From contig NZ_JAMTCG010000004.1 in assembly GCF_024171725.1 (NCBI RefSeq), positions 186,001 through 250,000 of the forward strand: a stretch of DNA of 64,000 nt, written 5' to 3'. The stretch comes from Williamsia serinedens (GTDB lineage Bacteria > Actinomycetota > Actinomycetes > Mycobacteriales > Mycobacteriaceae). Shown here in pieces: positions 16,566 to 31,628 of this stretch. The stretch's first letter is position 1. Every line of letters starts with the position of its first letter. A program made the position numbers and the translations under genes. The notes under the pieces are model-generated. The model saw only the letters and a program-made list of their open reading frames with translations, was not told the origin of the DNA and did no database searches.

Positions 16566-16988
16566 ATGACGCAACCCCCGTACGGACAGCAGCCCCAGTA
16601 CGGTGAGCAGCCCCAGTACGGTGAGCAGCCCCGCTACGGCGAACAGCCCGGGTGGGACAAGCAGCAGCCCGGACCGGGGACGCCCTACGGCGCACCGACG
16701 CCGCCGCCCTACGGCTACCCGATGGTGCGTCAGACGAACGGCAAGGCGATCGGCGCCATCGTGTGCGGGATCGCGAGCCTGGTGACCTGTCTGCTGTTCC
16801 TCGGCATCCCGGCCGTCGTCCTCGGCAACCTCGCACTCGGCGAGATCGACGATGCTCGCGGGATCCAGGACGGCCGCCAGCTGGCCGTCGCCGGGCGCCT
16901 GCTCGGGTGGGTGGCCATCGCGCTGATGATCCTGGGCCTGCTGGCGCTGCTCGTCGTGCTGCTGTTCGCGGCGGCGTCCACCCCCTGA
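16566..16988 (+). CDS. DUF4190 membrane protein with YGEQP repeats
   Basis: A 140-residue protein. The first 55 residues are Pro/Gln/Tyr-rich and include tandem copies of QYGEQP/RYGEQP encoded by near-identical DNA, a low-complexity cytosolic tail. Two membrane helices follow (AIGAIVCGIASLVTCLLFLG and LGWVAIALMILGLLALLVVL), separated by the conserved DUF4190 loop NLALGEID plus the GRQLAVAGRLLG segment. The family is widespread in actinobacteria with no assigned function. Repeat number in the tail is probably variable between strains. Confidence 0.87.
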   Translation: MTQPPYGQQPQYGEQPQYGEQPRYGEQPGWDKQQPGPGTPYGAPTPPPYGYPMVRQTNGKAIGAIVCGIASLVTCLLFLGIPAVVLGNLALGEIDDARGIQDGRQLAVAGRLLGWVAIALMILGLLALLVVLLFAAASTP

Positions 16989-23850: not shown

Positions 23851-24699
23851 TCAGTCCGGGATGTAGTCGAACGTGTCCGGGTTCGGGCCGGTGCGCCCGT
23901 CCTCACCCTTGTCGAGCTTGTCGAGCGCGGTGAGGTCGTCGTCGGTGAGCTCGAAGTCGAAGATGTCGAAGTTGTCCTTGACCCGGCTCTCGGTCACCGA
24001 CTTCGGGAAGACGATGTTGTCGCGCTGGATGTGCCAGCGCAGCACCACCTGTGCCGTGGACTTGCCCACGCGGTCGGCGATCTCGGAGATCGTCGAGTCG
24101 TCTAGCACCTTGCCCTGCGCGATCGGCGACCACGCCTCGGTCGCGATCCCGTGGTCCCTGCCGTAGGCGCGTGCGGTGTCGTTCGTGAAGTACGGGTGCA
24201 CCTCGATCTGGTTCACCGCCGGCACCACGTCGGTCTCCTTCGCGAGACGGTCGAGGTGGTCGGGCTGGAAGTTGGAGACGCCGATGGACTTCGCGCGACC
24301 CTGCTGCTGGAACTCGATGAGCGTCTGCCACGTCGAGACGTAGTCGCCGTCGTAGCGGGTGGGCAGCGGCCAGTGGATGAGGAACAGGTCGACGTGGTCG
24401 AGGCCGAGCTTCTCCAGGCTCTCGTCGAACGCCTTGCGCGCATCGTCCGGGCGGTGGAAGCCGTTGTTGAGCTTGGTCGTCACCCAGATGTCGTCGCGGG
24501 AGATGCCGCTGTCCCGGATGCCCTGCCCGACCTCGCGCTCGTTGTTGTACATCTCGGCGGTGTCGATGTGCCGGTAGCCGGTCTCCAGCGCCAGGCGGGT
24601 GGCCTTCGCGGTGTCCTCGGGCTCGATCTGGAACACGCCGAAGCCGAGCTGCGGGATGCTGCGGCCGTCGTTGAGGGTGAGGTTCGGGACGGTTGCCAT
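23851..24699 (-). CDS. Aldo/keto reductase
   Basis: A 282-residue NADPH-dependent TIM-barrel reductase of the AKR5-like (2,5-diketo-gluconate reductase) group. The catalytic tetrad is visible: Asp47 and Tyr51 (HIDTAEMYNNE), Lys76 (TTKLNNG) and His109 (DLFLIHWPLP). KSIGVSNFQPDHL, NQIEVHPYF and FPKSVTESRVKDNFDIFDFE, the last forming the 2'-phosphate site, complete the signature. The ATG at 24699 has GAGGAGG about 9 bases upstream, one of the strongest ribosome sites in the window. Likely role: detoxifying carbonyls; the real substrate is not evident. Confidence 0.93.
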   Translation of the reverse strand: MATVPNLTLNDGRSIPQLGFGVFQIEPEDTAKATRLALETGYRHIDTAEMYNNEREVGQGIRDSGISRDDIWVTTKLNNGFHRPDDARKAFDESLEKLGLDHVDLFLIHWPLPTRYDGDYVSTWQTLIEFQQQGRAKSIGVSNFQPDHLDRLAKETDVVPAVNQIEVHPYFTNDTARAYGRDHGIATEAWSPIAQGKVLDDSTISEIADRVGKSTAQVVLRWHIQRDNIVFPKSVTESRVKDNFDIFDFELTDDDLTALDKLDKGEDGRTGPNPDTFDYIPD

Positions 24700-24792
24700 G
24701 AGGCGGACCTCCTCGGGGTCGTCGGACACGGTCCGAGTCTCGGACCGACGGTGGTGTCCAACACGGCCCGAGGGGGTCGGCATTCCGACCGG

Positions 24793-25326
24793 CTACCCGT
24801 TCAGGCGTGATGCCTGGTCCGGCGTGGCGCCCCACCGCTGGTAGTCGATGGCCGAGCCGAGGTCGAGCGCGACCCAGTCGCCTCCCTCGTAGCGGAACAG
24901 CACGCGTGCGGCCTGGGTGCCCGGCGGCGCCGAGCGGCCCGTCGCGAACGGTCCGGCGCATCGGATGTCCCCGAACGCGACCGGCTTCGCCATCCGCCCG
25001 TAGATCTCCGTGGCCTGCACCGCGGTGAGCAGCGCCGACGGCGTGGCCAGTGAGCAGTCGACGTCGTCGGCCGGCGCGGCGGTGACGGTCGTTGTCGCCG
25101 CGGCCGGCGGGACGACCTGCGTCGCGGTCCCCGTCTCGGTCGGCTCCCCCGGATCCTCCTCGGCCGTCGCAGTGGCGGTCGGTGCCGACGCCACCGCCGA
25201 GGTGCTGATCGACGTCGTCGCGGACGCGCTGCTCTGCACAGCGTCGGCGGAGTCGTCGGAGGACGAGCACCCGGCGAGCGCCACCACGGCGGCGGCGAGC
25301 GGGAGGACAACCGTGACACGGCGCAT
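24793..25326 (-). CDS. Hypothetical lipoprotein
   Basis: A 177-residue secreted protein. The signal peptide (MRRVTVVLPLAAAVVALAGC) ends in the lipobox LAGC, so it should be lipid-anchored. A Ser/Thr/Ala/Glu-rich linker of about 70 residues follows. A C-terminal domain of about 90 residues has two cysteines (DDVDCSLATPSALL and FGDIRCAGPFATG), probably disulfide-bonded, and the motif YEGGDWVALDLGSAI. This pattern recurs among small secreted actinobacterial proteins, but no named family was recognised. It is separated from the aldo/keto reductase start by 93 bases. Confidence 0.8.
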   Translation of the reverse strand: MRRVTVVLPLAAAVVALAGCSSSDDSADAVQSSASATTSISTSAVASAPTATATAEEDPGEPTETGTATQVVPPAAATTTVTAAPADDVDCSLATPSALLTAVQATEIYGRMAKPVAFGDIRCAGPFATGRSAPPGTQAARVLFRYEGGDWVALDLGSAIDYQRWGATPDQASRLNG

Positions 25327-25441
25327 CGCGGAGTTCCTTTGTTCGACGAACGGATGATGTGTCCGGTTCGTCGTCGTCGCCTGACTCGTCGTTACCCTCC
25401 CGGCCCGTTTACGGCTGATCGCACGACAGTCCCCTCGACGA

Positions 25442-25480
25442 CGAGAGCCGCCCACCTGCGATGCAGGTGGGCGGCTCTCG
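25442..25480 (-). terminator. tmRNA terminator
   Basis: A perfect 18-bp stem: CGAGAGCCGCCCACCTGC (25442-25459), GAT loop, and its complement at 25463-25480, starting 4 bases after the tmRNA 3' end. It would equally fold from the other strand. Confidence 0.85.
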
Positions 25481-25483
25481 GAG

Positions 25484-25848
25484 TGGAGCTGCCGGGAATC
25501 GAACCCGGGTCCTTCGTCGTGTCAGCAGGGCTTCTCCGTGCGCAGTCCGCTGAGTCTCTACTCGGATCTCCTGGTCACGCGAACAAGCCAGGATGACGAT
25601 CCCAGTCGCTGTTTGTTGTTCCGTCCGCATCCGCGACCGAGGCGGACGGTGAGCTCCCTGGATGATGCCGGTACCCGGGGCGGGAGCACACCCGGGCCGA
25701 CAGACTCACACTCGCTCAGGCGGCGAGTGCGAAGTCGCGCTGATGAGAATCGGCGCTTAATTGGTTGCTACGACGCTTACGGTGGTCTCTAGCCTGCACC
25801 GGCACGCTTCCCCTACATCGACGCACGCAGTCGAAACCGTTCAGCCCC
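25484..25848 (-). ncRNA. ssrA: tmRNA (ssrA), tag ADSHQRDFALAA
   Basis: A 365-nt transfer-messenger RNA. The 5' end GGGGCTGAACGG and the 3' end GATTCCCGGCAGCTCCA pair as a tRNA-Ala-like acceptor (GGGGCTG with CAGCTCC), and the T arm CCGGGTTCGATTCCCGG is present. The tag frame starts at GCC 25754 after GCAACCAATTAAGC and reads ADSHQRDFALAA, ending in TGA at 25716-25718. The mycobacterial tag has Tyr where Phe stands here; the ALAA end recognised by ClpXP is kept. It tags peptides from stalled ribosomes with SmpB, encoded 160 bases upstream on the same strand. CCA is not encoded. Confidence 0.96.
25719..25754 (-). other. tmRNA proteolysis tag reading frame
   Basis: Twelve codons encoding ADSHQRDFALAA, read from 25754 down to 25719 and followed by TGA. 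The resume codon is GCC (alanine). Confidence 0.93.
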
Positions 25849-25882
25849 GTGTAGGACCCGCCACTTCCGCAGCGGGCTCTCG

Positions 25883-25911
25883 ATTCTAACAAGCGGGGTC
25901 CGACAGGTCAT
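25883..25911 (-). promoter_or_regulatory. tmRNA promoter
   Basis: On the minus strand ATGACC (25911-25906) and TAGAAT (25888-25883) are 17 bases apart, a good housekeeping-type match. Transcription would begin about 28 bases before the mature 5' end, leaving a short leader for RNase P to remove. Confidence 0.6.
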
Positions 25912-26010
25912 TCCCATTTCGGACACTTTCGCCCACAGACCCCACGGATCGGCTGCGACGTGCGCGATGGACACACGCGACACCTCAGCGGTGCGGGTTG
26001 AGGAAAGTCC

Positions 26011-26487
26011 TCAGCTCATCCCCTTGACGCGACGACCGAGTTCGCGGATCACGTCGCGGCGGGCGTCGCGCTCGGCGATGTCGCGGCGCTTGTCGTGCGC
26101 CTGCTTGCCGCGCGCGAGGGCGAGTTCGACCTTGACCTTGCCGTCGCTGAAGTACATCGACAACGGGACCAGCGTGAGGTTCTGCGTCTGCAGCTTGCCG
26201 ACGAGACCGTCGATCTCCCTGCGGTGCAACAGCAGCTTGCGGTTGCGGCGCGGCGCGTGGTTGGTCCAGCTGCCGCTGCCGTACTCCGCGATGTGCAGGG
26301 CGCGCAGCCACACCTCACCGTCGTCGATGGTGGCGAAGGCGTCGACGAGAGACGCCTTGCCGTCGCGCAGGGCCTTCACCTCGGTGCCGACGAGCGCGAT
26401 CCCCGCCTCATAGGTGTCGAGGATCGTGTACAGGTGGCGCGCCTTGCGGTTGGTCGCGATGGCCTTGCGGCCCTTCTCCTTCACCAC
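26011..26487 (-). CDS. smpB: SsrA-binding protein SmpB
   Basis: A 158-residue partner of tmRNA. It binds the tRNA-like domain and fills the decoding site of stalled ribosomes. Signatures: [58 protein letters not shown] and the basic tail [15 protein letters not shown]. The GTG at 26487 gives the normal VVKEKGRK opening and follows GAGGAGG. It lies upstream of ssrA on the same strand. In mycobacteria smpB directly follows ftsX; here a GNAT gene on the other strand and a repeat array separate them. Confidence 0.96.
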
Positions 26488-26581
26488 GGCGCACCTCCTC
26501 ACGGGTTCTCGATCGTCGCGGGTCGACGGTCCAGCCTACGCAGGGCTCGGCCGCACCCGCGAATCCTTTAGCATCCGAACA

Positions 26582-27106
26582 GTGTCCGCCCGCGATGTCG
26601 TCCCGTTGCCCGCCCTGCGACCCGCCACCCCCGACGACGCCCCGGCGATCGTCGCTCTCCGCGACGGACTCGCCCGGTGGCTCACCGACACCGGCGTGAA
26701 CCAGTGGCAGGAGGGCGAGATCACCGTCGAGCACGTCGCCGCGGGCGCGCGACTCGGCGAGTGGCACGTCGCGGAGGTGGAGGACGAGATCGTCGCGTGC
26801 GTGCGTCTGGCGTGGTCGGACCCGGACTTCTGGGGCGACGACGACGCACCGGCCGGCTACGTCCACGGGCTGATGGTGCGCCGCGACCATGCCGGACACG
26901 GCTGGGGCCGCGGCCTGATCGAGTGGGCCGCCCAGGCCACCGCCGCAGCGGGTCACGACCGGCTGCGCCTGGACACCGCCGCCCACAACACGACGATGGT
27001 CGACTACTACCGCTCGCGCGGGTTCACCGTTCTGCGCGAGGCCGACCTGCCGCCACAGTTCGGGCGGGACATGCGGATCGTGTTGTTCGAGCGCCGGCTC
27101 GACTGA
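26582..27106 (+). CDS. GNAT family N-acetyltransferase
   Basis: A 174-residue acetyltransferase. LRPATPDDAPAIVALRDGLA opens the GNAT fold, and YVHGLMVRRDHAGHGWGRGL holds the acetyl-CoA pyrophosphate loop (here HAGHGWG in place of Q/RxxGxG/A). RLDTAAHNTTMVDYYRSRGF is motif B with the substrate-side asparagine and YY-x-x-x-GF. Substrate unknown. The GTG start at 26582 is directly at the beginning of the conserved domain and has no strong ribosome site. It is inserted, on the opposite strand, between smpB and ftsX, which are adjacent in mycobacteria, and its end is followed by the 22-bp repeat array. Confidence 0.85.
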   Translation: MSARDVVPLPALRPATPDDAPAIVALRDGLARWLTDTGVNQWQEGEITVEHVAAGARLGEWHVAEVEDEIVACVRLAWSDPDFWGDDDAPAGYVHGLMVRRDHAGHGWGRGLIEWAAQATAAAGHDRLRLDTAAHNTTMVDYYRSRGFTVLREADLPPQFGRDMRIVLFERRLD

Positions 27107-27122
27107 CGAGCCCGGAACGACT

Positions 27123-27404
27123 CGCCCACCGTGCCGAAACTGCTCGCCGACCGTGCCGATACCCTCCGCCGACCGTGCCGATACGCCAGGCTGAGCGTGC
27201 CGAGATGACACCTCGACCGCGCCCCGACAGCGGGCTCTCGCCCGACGGCGGAGTCCCGCCCACTCGGCGGGGATTCTCGGCACGGTCGGCGGTGAGTTGT
27301 GGCCCACTCGGCTCGCGGTTTCGGCACACTCGGCGCTCGGTTTCGGCACACTCGGCTCACGGTTTCGGCACACTCGGCGCTCGGTTTCGGCACAGTCGGC
27401 GAAC
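27123..27404. repeat. Bipartite 22-bp repeat array in opposite orientations
   Basis: Left arm: the core CGTGCCGA recurs at 27130, 27152, 27174 and 27196, with a decayed copy at 27218, exactly 22 bases apart. Right arm: the reverse-complement core TCGGCAC, in units beginning GGTTTCGGCACACTCGGC, recurs at 27317, 27339, 27361 and 27383, preceded by degenerate units at 27251, 27273 and 27295, again with a strict 22-base period. The period is not a multiple of 3, so the array is not a coding repeat. Arms are mutually complementary and could form a long hairpin. The array occupies almost the whole 332-base gap between the convergent GNAT and ftsX genes, where no gene is seen. Confidence 0.85.
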
Positions 27405-27438
27405 TCGCGGTGTGCGTCCGCGCGCCTGACGAACCCGG

Positions 27439-28343
27439 TCAGATCCGGACGTAGAAGCGCAGCGTGGCGTAGCCGGTGACCGTCGCCAATCCGAGTCCGG
27501 CGAGCAGCAGCCACGGCGACACGAACACGACGTCGCCCATCGTGATGCGCGCGAGGATGTTGACGCCGTAGAGGTCGCCGAGGGCCCGGTCGAAGAAGAG
27601 CACCTTCGCCGCGAAGAGCCCGGCGATCGCGATCACCGACCCGATCAGCGCCGACACCACCGCCTCGAGAAGGAACGGCAGCTGCGTATACCACCGGGTG
27701 GCGCCGACCAGCCGCATGATCCCCACCTCCGTACGGCGGGTGTAGGCCGCGATCTGCACCGTGTTCGCGATGAGCAGGATCGCGGCGACGGCGAGCACCA
27801 GCGCGACGGTGAACGCGGCGTTCCGCGCCCCATCGAGCACGCTGAAGATGCGTTTCACCAGTTCTCGCTGGTCGAGCACGCCGTCGATGCCGTCCGCGGT
27901 CCGGAATTCGTCGAGCACCGGGCCGAACCGGTTCGCGTCGGAGACGCGGACCTTGAACGACGCGGGCAGCGTGTTCTCCCGGATCATCGACGCGAGGTCG
28001 GGGTCGTTGGCGAAGGTCTTCGTCTTGGCGTCACGGAAGGCCGCGGCGCGGTCGATGTACTGCACCGACTCGACGCCCTGCGTCTGCTCGATCCGCGTCC
28101 GCAGCGCGGCGCACGGGTCCGACCGGCACTCGGGGTCGGCGTCGGCGACCTGGTCGGAGATGAAGAACTGCATCTCGACGCGGTCGAGGAAGATGTCGCG
28201 GCTCTTGTCGGCCATCTGCACCACGAGCAGACCACCGCCGAACATCGCGAGCGTGATGGCGGTGGTCAGCACCATCGCGGCGAACATCGTGACGTTGCGG
28301 CGCAGGCCGTTGGCGACCTCGCTGACGATGAAACTCCAGCGCA

Positions 28344-28344
<1 letters not shown>
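27439..28344 (-). CDS. ftsX: Cell-division protein FtsX
   Basis: A 301-residue permease-like subunit of the FtsEX complex, which activates peptidoglycan hydrolases at the septum. It has an N-terminal cytosolic tail, first helix (about 20-45) and a large extracytoplasmic loop (about 46-170) with a cysteine pair (ECRSDPCAALRTRIEQTQG). Three further helices follow in the C-terminal half. RRTEVGIMRLVGATRWYTQLPFLLE, read here from about residue 205, is the conserved FtsX motif. The start ATG shares one base with the ftsE stop (TGATG), giving coupled translation. Confidence 0.95.
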
Positions 28345-29030
<686 letters not shown>

Positions 29031-29090
29031 GGCGGCCAGTGTAGCCACGGCCGACACCGCCTCCGGGGACCCCGAGGGGCCCCGCGCGCG

Positions 29091-29537
29091 TCACCGGGCA
29101 GGCGTCGTCGTCGGTGTCTGACCCGGGAACTGCAGGCCCGGGATGGTGGGGAACTGCAGCCCGCCGGTGGTGGTCGTGGGAACCGTCTCGGTGCCCGTCG
29201 AGCCCTCGTCGGTGCCGGTGGTCGTGGGGGTGACCGACGTCGAGGACGGCACCGACGACGAGGTCGACCGGCGCGTCGTGGTGGTCTCGGGGACGTAGTC
29301 CTCGGTCGTCGACGGGGTGGTCCGCGGGGCGGTGCTCGCGGCGGCGCGGTCGGCGTCGACCTGGGCGTAGTGGTCGACGCGCTGACCGTAGAGCGCGAGC
29401 AGGCCGACGAACAGCAGCACCATCACGGCTGTCGTCGTGCGGACGCGACCGCCGAGCAGGTGCCGCGGGATGCGCGACCACAGCGACCGGTGCGCGTCGG
29501 GGTCGGTCGGGGTGCGTGACTGGTCGTCGGGGCTCAT
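29091..29537 (-). CDS. Thr-rich single-pass membrane protein
   Basis: A 148-residue protein with a short polar N-terminus, one transmembrane helix (TTAVMVLLFVGLLALYGQ, about 35-52) and an extracytoplasmic tail dominated by Thr, Ser and Pro. The tail ends in GGLQFPTIPGLQFPGQ, which has a repeated LQFP element. No domain recognised. A proline/threonine-rich membrane protein stands at the same place (between the MscS-like and ftsE genes) in mycobacteria, so a conserved but unknown function near FtsEX is likely. The ATG overlaps the MscS stop by 4 bases. The tail may be O-mannosylated. Confidence 0.82.
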   Translation of the reverse strand: MSPDDQSRTPTDPDAHRSLWSRIPRHLLGGRVRTTTAVMVLLFVGLLALYGQRVDHYAQVDADRAAASTAPRTTPSTTEDYVPETTTTRRSTSSSVPSSTSVTPTTTGTDEGSTGTETVPTTTTGGLQFPTIPGLQFPGQTPTTTPAR

Positions 29538-30502
29538 GAGGACCGCCTCGAGGAGTCGGGTGTCGATTCGGGTTCGGTGCGGGTCTCGCCGACGCCCGAC
29601 GGGGTCATCGCGCCGGTCTCGATGCGCTCGCCGCTCGCGAGTGCGATCCCGGCGCGACCGAAGGACCGGACGATGCGCGCGCGCAGGTCGCGGCTGACCT
29701 CGAACTGCTTGCCCGGCAGCGTGCGGGCGACCATGCGGACGGTCAGGTTGTCGAGTTCGACGTCGGTGACGCCCATCGACGACGGCTCGTCGAGGAGCAG
29801 CGGACGCATGCGCGGATCCGCGAAGGTCTGCTGCCCCACCTTGGTGAGCAGTTCGTTGACCCGTCCCATGTCGGCGCCGACGGGCAGCGGGATGTCGACG
29901 ACGGAGCGCGCCCAGTCCTTGGAGAGGTTGATCGCCTTGACGATCTGGCCGTTCGGGACGGTGATGACCTCGCCGTCGGACGAGCGGATCTTGGTGACCC
30001 TGAGGGTGACGTCCTCGACGGTGCCCTCGGCGGGCGGGATGCCACCGGTCACCGCGAGCTCGACCACGTCGCCGAAGCCGTACTGCTTCTCGGTGATGAT
30101 GAAGAACCCGGCGAGCAAATCCTGCACGACGCGCTGCGCGCCGAAACCGAGCGCGGCACCGAGAACCGTCGCGGGCGCGACGAAGCCGGTGATCGGGACG
30201 CCCAACGCCTTGATGATGTTGAACGCCGCGACGATGTAGACGATCACGATCGCGACCCAGGAGATGACCTGCGCCAGCGAGTGCCGGTGCTTGGCCGTCT
30301 CCGACCGCACCAACTCGTCGGACTCCTTGAAGCTCCGGTCGATCCGCGTGGTGATGCGCCCGGTCGCCCACTGGATGAAGCGCGTCAGGATCAGCGCACC
30401 GAGGACGTTGAGGACGATCTGCAGACCCTGCAGCGACAGGGCGCGGATCAGGCGGTCGGATCCGGGTGGTGACCCGACGGCGAGGAACAGGACGTCGTGC
30501 AC
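29534..30502 (-). CDS. MscS-type mechanosensitive channel
   Basis: A 322-residue membrane protein. Helices occur at about 20-40, 70-95 and 100-120, the last being the pore helix region (FVAPATVLGAALGFGAQRVV, then QDLLAGFFI), with Gly/Ala packing typical of MscS TM3. The beta domain follows (YGFGDVVELAVTG, VEDVTLRVTKIRSSDGEVIT, VPNGQIVKAINLSKDWARSV) and then the alpha/beta C-terminal domain. It releases solutes under hypo-osmotic stress. The GTG at 30502 follows GAGAGGGG. It begins 10 bases after the prfB stop and overlaps the next gene by 4 bases, so prfB-mscS-(Thr-rich)-ftsE-ftsX is one unit. Confidence 0.9.
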   Translation of the reverse strand: MHDVLFLAVGSPPGSDRLIRALSLQGLQIVLNVLGALILTRFIQWATGRITTRIDRSFKESDELVRSETAKHRHSLAQVISWVAIVIVYIVAAFNIIKALGVPITGFVAPATVLGAALGFGAQRVVQDLLAGFFIITEKQYGFGDVVELAVTGGIPPAEGTVEDVTLRVTKIRSSDGEVITVPNGQIVKAINLSKDWARSVVDIPLPVGADMGRVNELLTKVGQQTFADPRMRPLLLDEPSSMGVTDVELDNLTVRMVARTLPGKQFEVSRDLRARIVRSFGRAGIALASGERIETGAMTPSGVGETRTEPESTPDSSRRSS

Positions 30503-30512
30503 GTGTCCCCTC

Positions 30513-31628
30513 TCAGCTCTGTGCGGAGGCCATCCGCCAGCGGATGCCCGACTCGATGAACCCGTCGATGTCGCCGTCGAGCACCGCCGAGGGATTGTTG
30601 ACCTCGTACTCGGTCCGCAGGTCCTTGACCATCTGATACGGGTGCAGGACGTAGGAACGCATCTGGTTGCCCCAGCTGGAGCCACCGTCGCCCTTGAGGG
30701 CGTCCATCTCGGCGCGCTCCTCCTGGCGCTTGCGCTCCAGCAGCTTGGCCTGCAGGACGCGCAGAGCAGCCGCCTTGTTCTGCAGCTGGCTCTTCTCGTT
30801 CTGACAGGTCACGACGATGCCCGTCGGGATGTGGGTCAGACGGACGGCCGAGTCGGTGGTGTTCACCGACTGCCCACCGGGCCCAGACGAGCGGTAGACG
30901 TCGACGCGCAGGTCGTTCTCGTCGATGTCGATGTGGTCGGTGGTCTCGACGACGGGCAGCACCTCCACCTCGGCGAACGAGGTCTGGCGGCGTCCCTGGT
31001 TGTCGAAGGGACTGATGCGCACCAGCCGGTGGGTGCCCATCTCGATCGAGAGGGTCCCGTACATGTACGGCGCCTTCACCGCGAACGTCGCGCTCTTCAG
31101 CCCGGCCTCCTCGGCGTAGGAGGTGTCGTACACCTCGACGCCGTACTTGTGCTTCTCGGCCCAGCGGATGTACATGCGCATGAGCATCTCGGCCCAGTCG
31201 GCGGCGTCGACGCCACCGGCACCGGCGCGGATGTTGACCAGGGCGTCGCGCTGGTCGTACTCGCCGGCGAGCATGGTCTTGACCTCCATCGCCTCGATGT
31301 CGGCGCGCAGCGATGCGCGCTCGGCGTCGGCGTCGGCGAGGCCCTGGGTCCGCGCGTCGCCCTCCTCGTCCTCCGCGAGCTCGTAGAGCACGGGCAGGTC
31401 GTCGAGACGGCTGCGCAGCTCGGTGACCCGTCGGAACTCGCTCTGCGCGTGCGACAGCTCCGAGGTGACCTTCTGCGCGTTCTCCTGGTTGTTCCAGAGC
31501 TCGGGGTCGGCCGCCTCGTGCTCGAGCTCGTCGATGCGACGGGAGAGCTCCTCGAGGTCGAGGACCTTCTCCACCGTCGTGAGGGTGGCGTCGAGGTTCT
31601 CGATGTCGGTCTGGACGTCAGGTTGCAC
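30513..31628 (-). CDS. prfB: Peptide chain release factor 2
   Basis: A 371-residue class-I release factor for UAA/UGA. The codon-recognition tripeptide SPF is in [20 protein letters not shown], and the hydrolysis-triggering GGQ lies in [20 protein letters not shown]. The open frame is continuous from GTG 31628: there is no internal TGA with the CTTTGAC-type programmed +1 frameshift site found in many bacteria. Expression is therefore not autoregulated that way. First gene of the unit leading to ftsEX. Confidence 0.97.

Follow-up and report, generated by a model that had tools for sequence, protein, structure and literature searches.

Inward-facing, helically phased arrays of 21–22-bp repeats at convergent gene ends in Williamsia, a dispersed family with a putative protein-binding role

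The window analyzed here, a stretch of 64,000 nucleotides from Williamsia serinedens (contig NZ_JAMTCG010000004.1, positions 186,001 to 250,000), contains an inward-facing double array of 22-bp units that lies between two convergent genes: a putative GNAT acetyltransferase gene on the plus strand (26582–27106, start uncertain) and a putative ftsX on the minus strand (27439–28344), both names being taken from an earlier, sequence-only reading. The left arm (27124–27227, plus strand) holds five units in the GCCGASYGTGC orientation, starting at 27124, 27146, 27168, 27190 and 27212, and the right arm (27253–27400, minus strand) holds seven units in the TTTCGGCACNSTCGGC orientation, starting at 27253, 27275, 27297, 27319, 27341, 27363 and 27385. 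The innermost unit of each arm is degenerate; the fifth unit on the left (27212–27227) lies below the detection threshold and was read by eye, and its counterpart is the first unit on the right (27253–27268). When both are counted, the center between the arms measures 25 bp (27228–27252), and by script the central gap is 47 bp (from 27205 to 27253).

With up to three mismatches allowed, TTTCGGCACACTCGGC matches the minus strand at 27124, 27146, 27168 and 27190, and the plus strand at 27275, 27297, 27319, 27341, 27363 and 27385. These ten strong matches, with one degenerate unit on each inner side, reproduce the five left and seven right units described in the sequence-only reading. Including one outside the array, the window has 11 matches in total, whereas 1.08 are expected by chance; none of 100 shuffles reached 11. 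The outlying unit-like match, at 31187–31202, has three mismatches and no array around it; approximately one is expected by chance. As described earlier, the arms are opposite in orientation and mutually complementary (predicted RNA fold of 27100–27445, z = −6.15), but many unit pairs are mismatched at unit positions 6–7. Every unit spacing in the window array is 22, and the strict 22-base period claimed for it therefore holds locally; family-wide, the period is 21 or 22.

Three other identities were rejected for the array. The loose spacers of 10–11 bp, none of them unique, and the two opposite arms rule out a CRISPR array, as had been argued before; a coding repeat is ruled out at this site because 22 is not a multiple of 3; and a search of positions 24000–30000 against Rfam gave no match above the gathering score for the array, the only family found being tmRNA. 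The tmRNA gene (RF00023) lies at 25481–25848 on the minus strand, near an ORF (26011–26502) that we take to be SmpB-like. The window also contains an 18-bp tandem repeat of 4.4 copies (16571–16649), possibly a coding repeat.

A 12-bp direct repeat surrounds the array. Its left copy, TGACGAGCCCGG (27104–27115, plus strand), holds the GNAT stop codon, and its right copy, TGACGAACCCGG (27427–27438, plus strand, one mismatch), adjoins the ftsX stop. At the orthologous site in W. deligens DSM 44902 the array is absent, the repeat is present as a single copy, TGACGGACCCGG, and 9 bp separate the two stops, whereas the uncultured Williamsia isolate 235-3Z carries an array that is shorter and diverged; in five other congeners, no array was found at this site within the stretch read. 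Judged from sequence, the direct repeat, single in W. deligens, looks as it would after an insertion.

The array belongs to a dispersed intergenic family, one of the possibilities raised in the earlier reading, and the genome-wide search proposed there returned further copies. Within two mismatches, the 16-mer occurs at 53 places in the W. serinedens genome (4.64 Mb, 33 contigs), compared with 0 for the reversed control, and at least 36 arrays were counted there. A two-unit sequence model matches all eight genus genomes examined (E ≤ 0.01), from at least 14 to at least 110 times each, and at E ≤ 1e-4 it matches at least 20 of 151 family genomes, namely 8/8 of the genus, eight of a second genus and four others with at least 1 to at least 5 matches; these counts are lower bounds, as 150 candidates per genome were scored in the genus search and 44 in the family search. 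An exact pattern searched over the contig database returned 56 stretches, of which 48 carry Williamsia in their title, and a 21-bp pattern was present in 6 of 397 genomes of an order-level sample, at 35 places in W. serinedens and once in each of five further genomes. In a third genus (G415), a similar array of two units follows a gene end (L279), which suggests that the family may extend just past two Williamsia-like genera. In open-licence PMC text, the Williamsia literature included, we found neither a described repeat family with these units nor a named element of such structure, in line with the earlier statement that none was known, and the papers there that contain the core strings look unrelated by title.

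For the catalogue, the eight stretches from other organisms were removed and 48 were kept. A fresh set of 60 stretches was picked from the best matching places, with approximately 17 further places left out, and of its arrays 23 identical to earlier ones were removed and 46 kept. Arms were joined into one array across distances of up to 120 bp. The resulting 182 arrays merge to 79 sites, each cluster being represented by its first array; one cluster of 20 arrays may fuse distinct sites.

The repeat unit, as defined by 777 examples, is 21 or 22 bp long and consists of a conserved GYCGASYGKGC core followed by a loose, A-richer spacer. The core is not self-complementary, and the unit is not an imperfect palindrome. 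When neighboring units on the same strand are counted at any spacing of at least 12 bp, 674 of 719 are 21 (357) or 22 (317) bp apart, and spacings of 20, 23 and 24 occur seven times combined; the chain rule used to build arrays admitted 20–23, 42–44 and 63–66 alone. Since units were found by a matrix trained on W. serinedens arrays, core conservation in the catalogue is partly circular. Comparison of orthologous units between W. serinedens and isolate 235-3Z or W. deligens (153 aligned) avoids this circularity, although repeats may shift register when aligned: mean identity is 91% at seven core positions, compared with 69% for the spacer and 84% for the flanks, so that most of the core is kept while the spacer drifts faster than adjacent DNA. 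Core positions 2, 6, 7 and 9, at 0.62–0.78, do no better than the spacer-to-flank range. Units also vary with their place in the array. Position 12 is C in 63–65% of outermost units and in approximately 40% of fourth units, and in arrays such as L039, L045, L047 and L048 the gene-near units are mostly of a 22-bp GTGCCGAAAC type and the inner units of a 21-bp GTGCA..GATCCC type.

Most arms begin no more than some tens of bases from a stop codon, and the arrays are enriched between convergent genes. Among W. serinedens arrays with two called neighbors, 20/33 lie in such gaps, compared with 37/260 other junctions (p = 2e-8), where genes were called by a custom script and the 260 background junctions come from the window and from stretches chosen for holding arrays. 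In the window itself, one of 13 called convergent junctions holds an array. Where two arms are present, their order is almost always inward (FR): 31 of the 79 merged sites are inward and one is outward, compound orders such as FRFR (four sites) having been left out of the count, and in co-directional contexts the figures are 11 and 1. The three outward (RF) arrays are a single site (L051) in three genomes, and one fresh array reads RRF. Of 15 co-directional sites with a single arm, to which this count is confined, 12 have the arm in sense orientation relative to the gene upstream (p = 0.035). That unit strand strictly follows the upstream gene finds only weak support, since an arm in a convergent gap, whatever its orientation, is sense to one of the two neighbors.

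The length of the central gap, measured from the last F to the first R 16-mer, is quantized. It is 17–18 in 25 of 49 cases and 38–39 in eight; 11 gaps lie near half-unit values (7, 26–29 and 47–50), and five fall elsewhere (16, 37, 59, 60 and 81). In the first gap set, the best of the periods tried between 8 and 14.5 was 10.5 bp (R = 0.90), and the 14 gaps that remain when 16–18 and 37–39 are left out still give R = 0.82 at 10.5 bp. The prediction that gap mod 10.5 would be close to 7.0 was recorded before the results of the 60 fresh stretches, and the predicted phase recurs there, both in all 18 gaps (R = 0.77, phase 6.9) and in the eight outside the main classes (R = 0.70, phase 7.0). Because R at 9.5 bp is close to these values (0.74 and 0.63, respectively), the fresh set alone cannot fix the period, and its arrays are partly non-independent (L253/L269, the pair of arrays within L245 and that within L274, and L243, an orthologue of L105). 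A cleaner test takes one gap per site, old and fresh (44 sites): the best period in a scan of 6–20 bp is 10.5 (R = 0.86), and at the 15 sites outside the main classes it is 10.6 (R = 0.77, approximate Rayleigh p = 1.4e-4), where this test and that of the eight fresh arrays leave out gaps 16–19 and 37–40. Raising the unit threshold yields 63 site-gap pairs, for which R is 0.84; among 20,000 jittered sets, none was as high.

No 10.5-bp phasing is seen in the 13 outward R-to-F gaps (R = 0.25), and the 31 interruptions between same-strand units score highest at 11.6 bp (R 0.74; 0.67 at 10.5). Some orthologous sites differ in gap by approximately one turn (17/7, 16/26 and 18/8) and others by two (39/17 and 39/59), with 47/38 and 18/26 less exact. 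Loops of 17–18 share a weak mutual similarity (0.30, compared with 0.264 shuffled), so some of the gap pattern may reflect inheritance, and the main classes (17–18 and 38–39) could descend from one founder. The gap of the window array (25 or 47) is off the family phase by 2–3 bp.

The inward order, the helical quantization of the gap and the conserved turn in each unit suggest that: (i) a sequence-specific DNA-binding protein recognizes the units and (ii) it does so within a phased complex. Based on these observations, we tentatively propose, at somewhat less than an even chance, that the Williamsia family to which the array belongs acts at the DNA level, bound by protein and most likely serving as a barrier between convergent genes. 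In each unit, a putative protein would meet a helical turn of conserved sequence (GYCGASYGKGC) and a second turn that is freer to vary, and the bound proteins may join in a single regular nucleoprotein structure that bends or wraps the DNA, since units and central gap hold the 10.5-bp phase. At convergent gene ends such a structure could act as a polar roadblock to RNA polymerase, or as a topological sink or insulator, much as BIMEs do with gyrase and IHF in E. coli. A protein-binding array was among the functions offered in the sequence-only reading and is the best supported candidate mechanism, by the core conservation, the two-turn unit spacing and the quantized gap; the conserved core recurs at approximately whole helical turns, as in an iteron-like array. 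Against the proposal count the possible single founder of the main gap classes, the 11.6-bp peak of the same-strand interruptions, the poorly conserved core positions 2, 6, 7 and 9, the off-phase gap of the window array, the presence of an array at only one of 13 convergent junctions called in the window and a single-arm sense bias of 12 to 3.

It is unlikely, in our estimate, that the arrays are instead a selfish or passively spreading repeat with no host function, whose units copy themselves into further intergenic regions and multiply there in tandem, are tolerated where promoters are undisturbed, and keep their core as the target of a copying machinery. Convergent gene ends would be the safest landing places for such a repeat, and turnover is considerable. 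Seven W. serinedens arrays, that of the window included, have a clean empty orthologous site in at least one of two relatives (the others are L032, L036, L037, L041, L162 and the second L163 array); unit number differs at most orthologous sites, and one arm can be absent (L045, L046 and L158). In one case (L160:4039–4117, G000:C5), four 21-bp units lie in frame in a large ORF that we read as NRPS-like, where they encode AERAVDP repeats and, by sequence, the repeat seems to have invaded a coding linker. The 12-bp direct repeat around the window array, with its one copy in W. deligens, would also fit. However, visual inspection of the six other empty sites revealed no target duplication, so that duplication does not look like a general rule, and the REP-associated Y1 transposase (RAYT, PF01797) was found in 0/8 genus genomes, compared with 5/14 in a control search, which rules out RAYT-driven REP spread. 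Many sites are, moreover, common to relatives, approximately a dozen in W. serinedens carrying units in both, and copying has no need of a helical phase in the central gap.

The array had also been read as a possible long bidirectional terminator, and an RNA-level terminator or 3′-end stabilizer, in which either transcript folds the arms into a long hairpin, would suit the proximity of most arms to stop codons. We consider it quite improbable. In comparison with 30 shuffles each, the window array folds with z −7.5 and −10.9, and 16 bipartite W. serinedens arrays with z −2.3 to −10.3 on the top strand and −0.6 to −11.0 on the bottom strand, so that most bipartite arrays would place a stable hairpin past the stop codon. 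In contrast, folding is slight in the 20 single-arm arrays of the same genome, with z from +1.3 to −3.4 on the top strand and from +1.0 to −4.0 on the bottom strand, and there the hairpin is weak or absent. The outward array L051 folds comparably to the inward ones (z −7.5 and −5.8), yet inward order leads 31 to 1, and 12 of the 13 convergent junctions in the window lack an array.

The two arms of an array do resemble each other, which favors a hairpin and counts against protein binding alone. They agree in spacing at 80/104 (0.77, compared with 0.60 with arms shuffled, p = 0.0002; in W. serinedens alone not significant, p = 0.10) and at position 12 (0.69 compared with 0.40), but between arms no co-variation was found at core position 6 (0.41, compared with 0.46 between arrays). 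Agreement is approximately as good one unit out of register (57/75 and 50/72 for spacing, 0.63 at position 12), and the resemblance thus does not imply exact pairing; it fits palindromic descent or partial pairing. At the W. deligens orthologue (L196) of the L162 site, where W. serinedens has an F4R4 array, a compact GC hairpin, CCCGCCC...GGGCGGG, was seen by eye between two stops, as a hairpin function would allow. The terminator reading agrees with the folding of bipartite arrays and is weakened by the single arms, position 6, arm order and loop phase. A hairpin needs neither 10.5-bp steps in loop length nor a given arm order; helix-phased protein binding would explain both, and the hairpin explains neither. 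Intrinsic curvature alone, with phased A/T steps bending the DNA in place of a specific protein, is very improbable: A/T content has maxima at unit positions 5 and 14–15, approximately one turn apart, and by arithmetic the gap phase would hold the 14–15 pulses near whole turns across the center, but a further peak at position 9 (0.90) sits half a turn off, and curvature has no need of seven GC-rich core positions conserved above the A/T tract.

REP units are palindromes of approximately 35 bp. The Williamsia unit, by contrast, is a non-palindromic 21–22 bp, tandem within an arm and inverted between arms alone, and for this reason, and because the Y1 transposase of REP systems was not found in the eight genus genomes, the array is not a REP. 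It shares with the REP/BIME elements of Enterobacteria and Pseudomonas a dispersed, extragenic location enriched between convergent genes. PMC1525189 describes REPs between convergent genes that bind Pol I, gyrase and IHF, and its reference list includes titles on BIME transcription attenuation and BIME polymorphism. By analogy, the array may be called BIME-like, BIMEs being its nearest known analogue in behavior. As in plasmid iterons, of which the 22-bp repeats of R6K are an example, direct repeats with a conserved part stand approximately two helical turns apart; unlike iterons, the Williamsia arrays number in the dozens on the chromosome, at gene ends, many as inward-facing arm pairs. Mycobacterial MIRU/VNTR loci, from a related group, are likewise interspersed intergenic tandem repeats of variable unit number, but MIRU units are 40–100 bp long and are not known to have an inverted two-arm layout, whereas the Williamsia units are 21–22 bp with inverted arms. 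In eukaryotes, the Sal-box terminators of Pol I are tandem, oriented TTF-I sites that stop polymerase after genes, a likeness that we offer as an analogy of polar roadblocks alone, with no claim of homology. The TAACTGA direct repeats of Beggiatoaceae, also short and intergenic, occupy more than 100 sites in one genome, with regulator binding suggested, according to PMC4679880; these heptamers lie mostly just upstream of start codons, whereas the Williamsia units lie past stops and are often two-armed.

It is possible, if doubtful, that the arrays represent a new class of element, in which inward-facing, helix-phased arrays would load a putative DNA-binding protein between convergent genes, form a barrier to polymerase or supercoil diffusion, and be rapidly copied and resized within one genus. 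If the protein-bound reading is true, the architecture of repeats, beyond their sequence, would be legible in genomes, arm order and the 10.5-bp gap implying a physical DNA complex. The family would then provide a natural replicate experiment, with dozens of arrays per genome and empty sites in sister species, and would bear on the use that bacteria make of the DNA separating convergent genes, a meeting point of polymerases and positive supercoils. Should the repeat prove selfish, Williamsia still harbors an apparently unnamed interspersed repeat family of Actinobacteria, with rapid turnover of its sites and one in-frame invasion of a protein.
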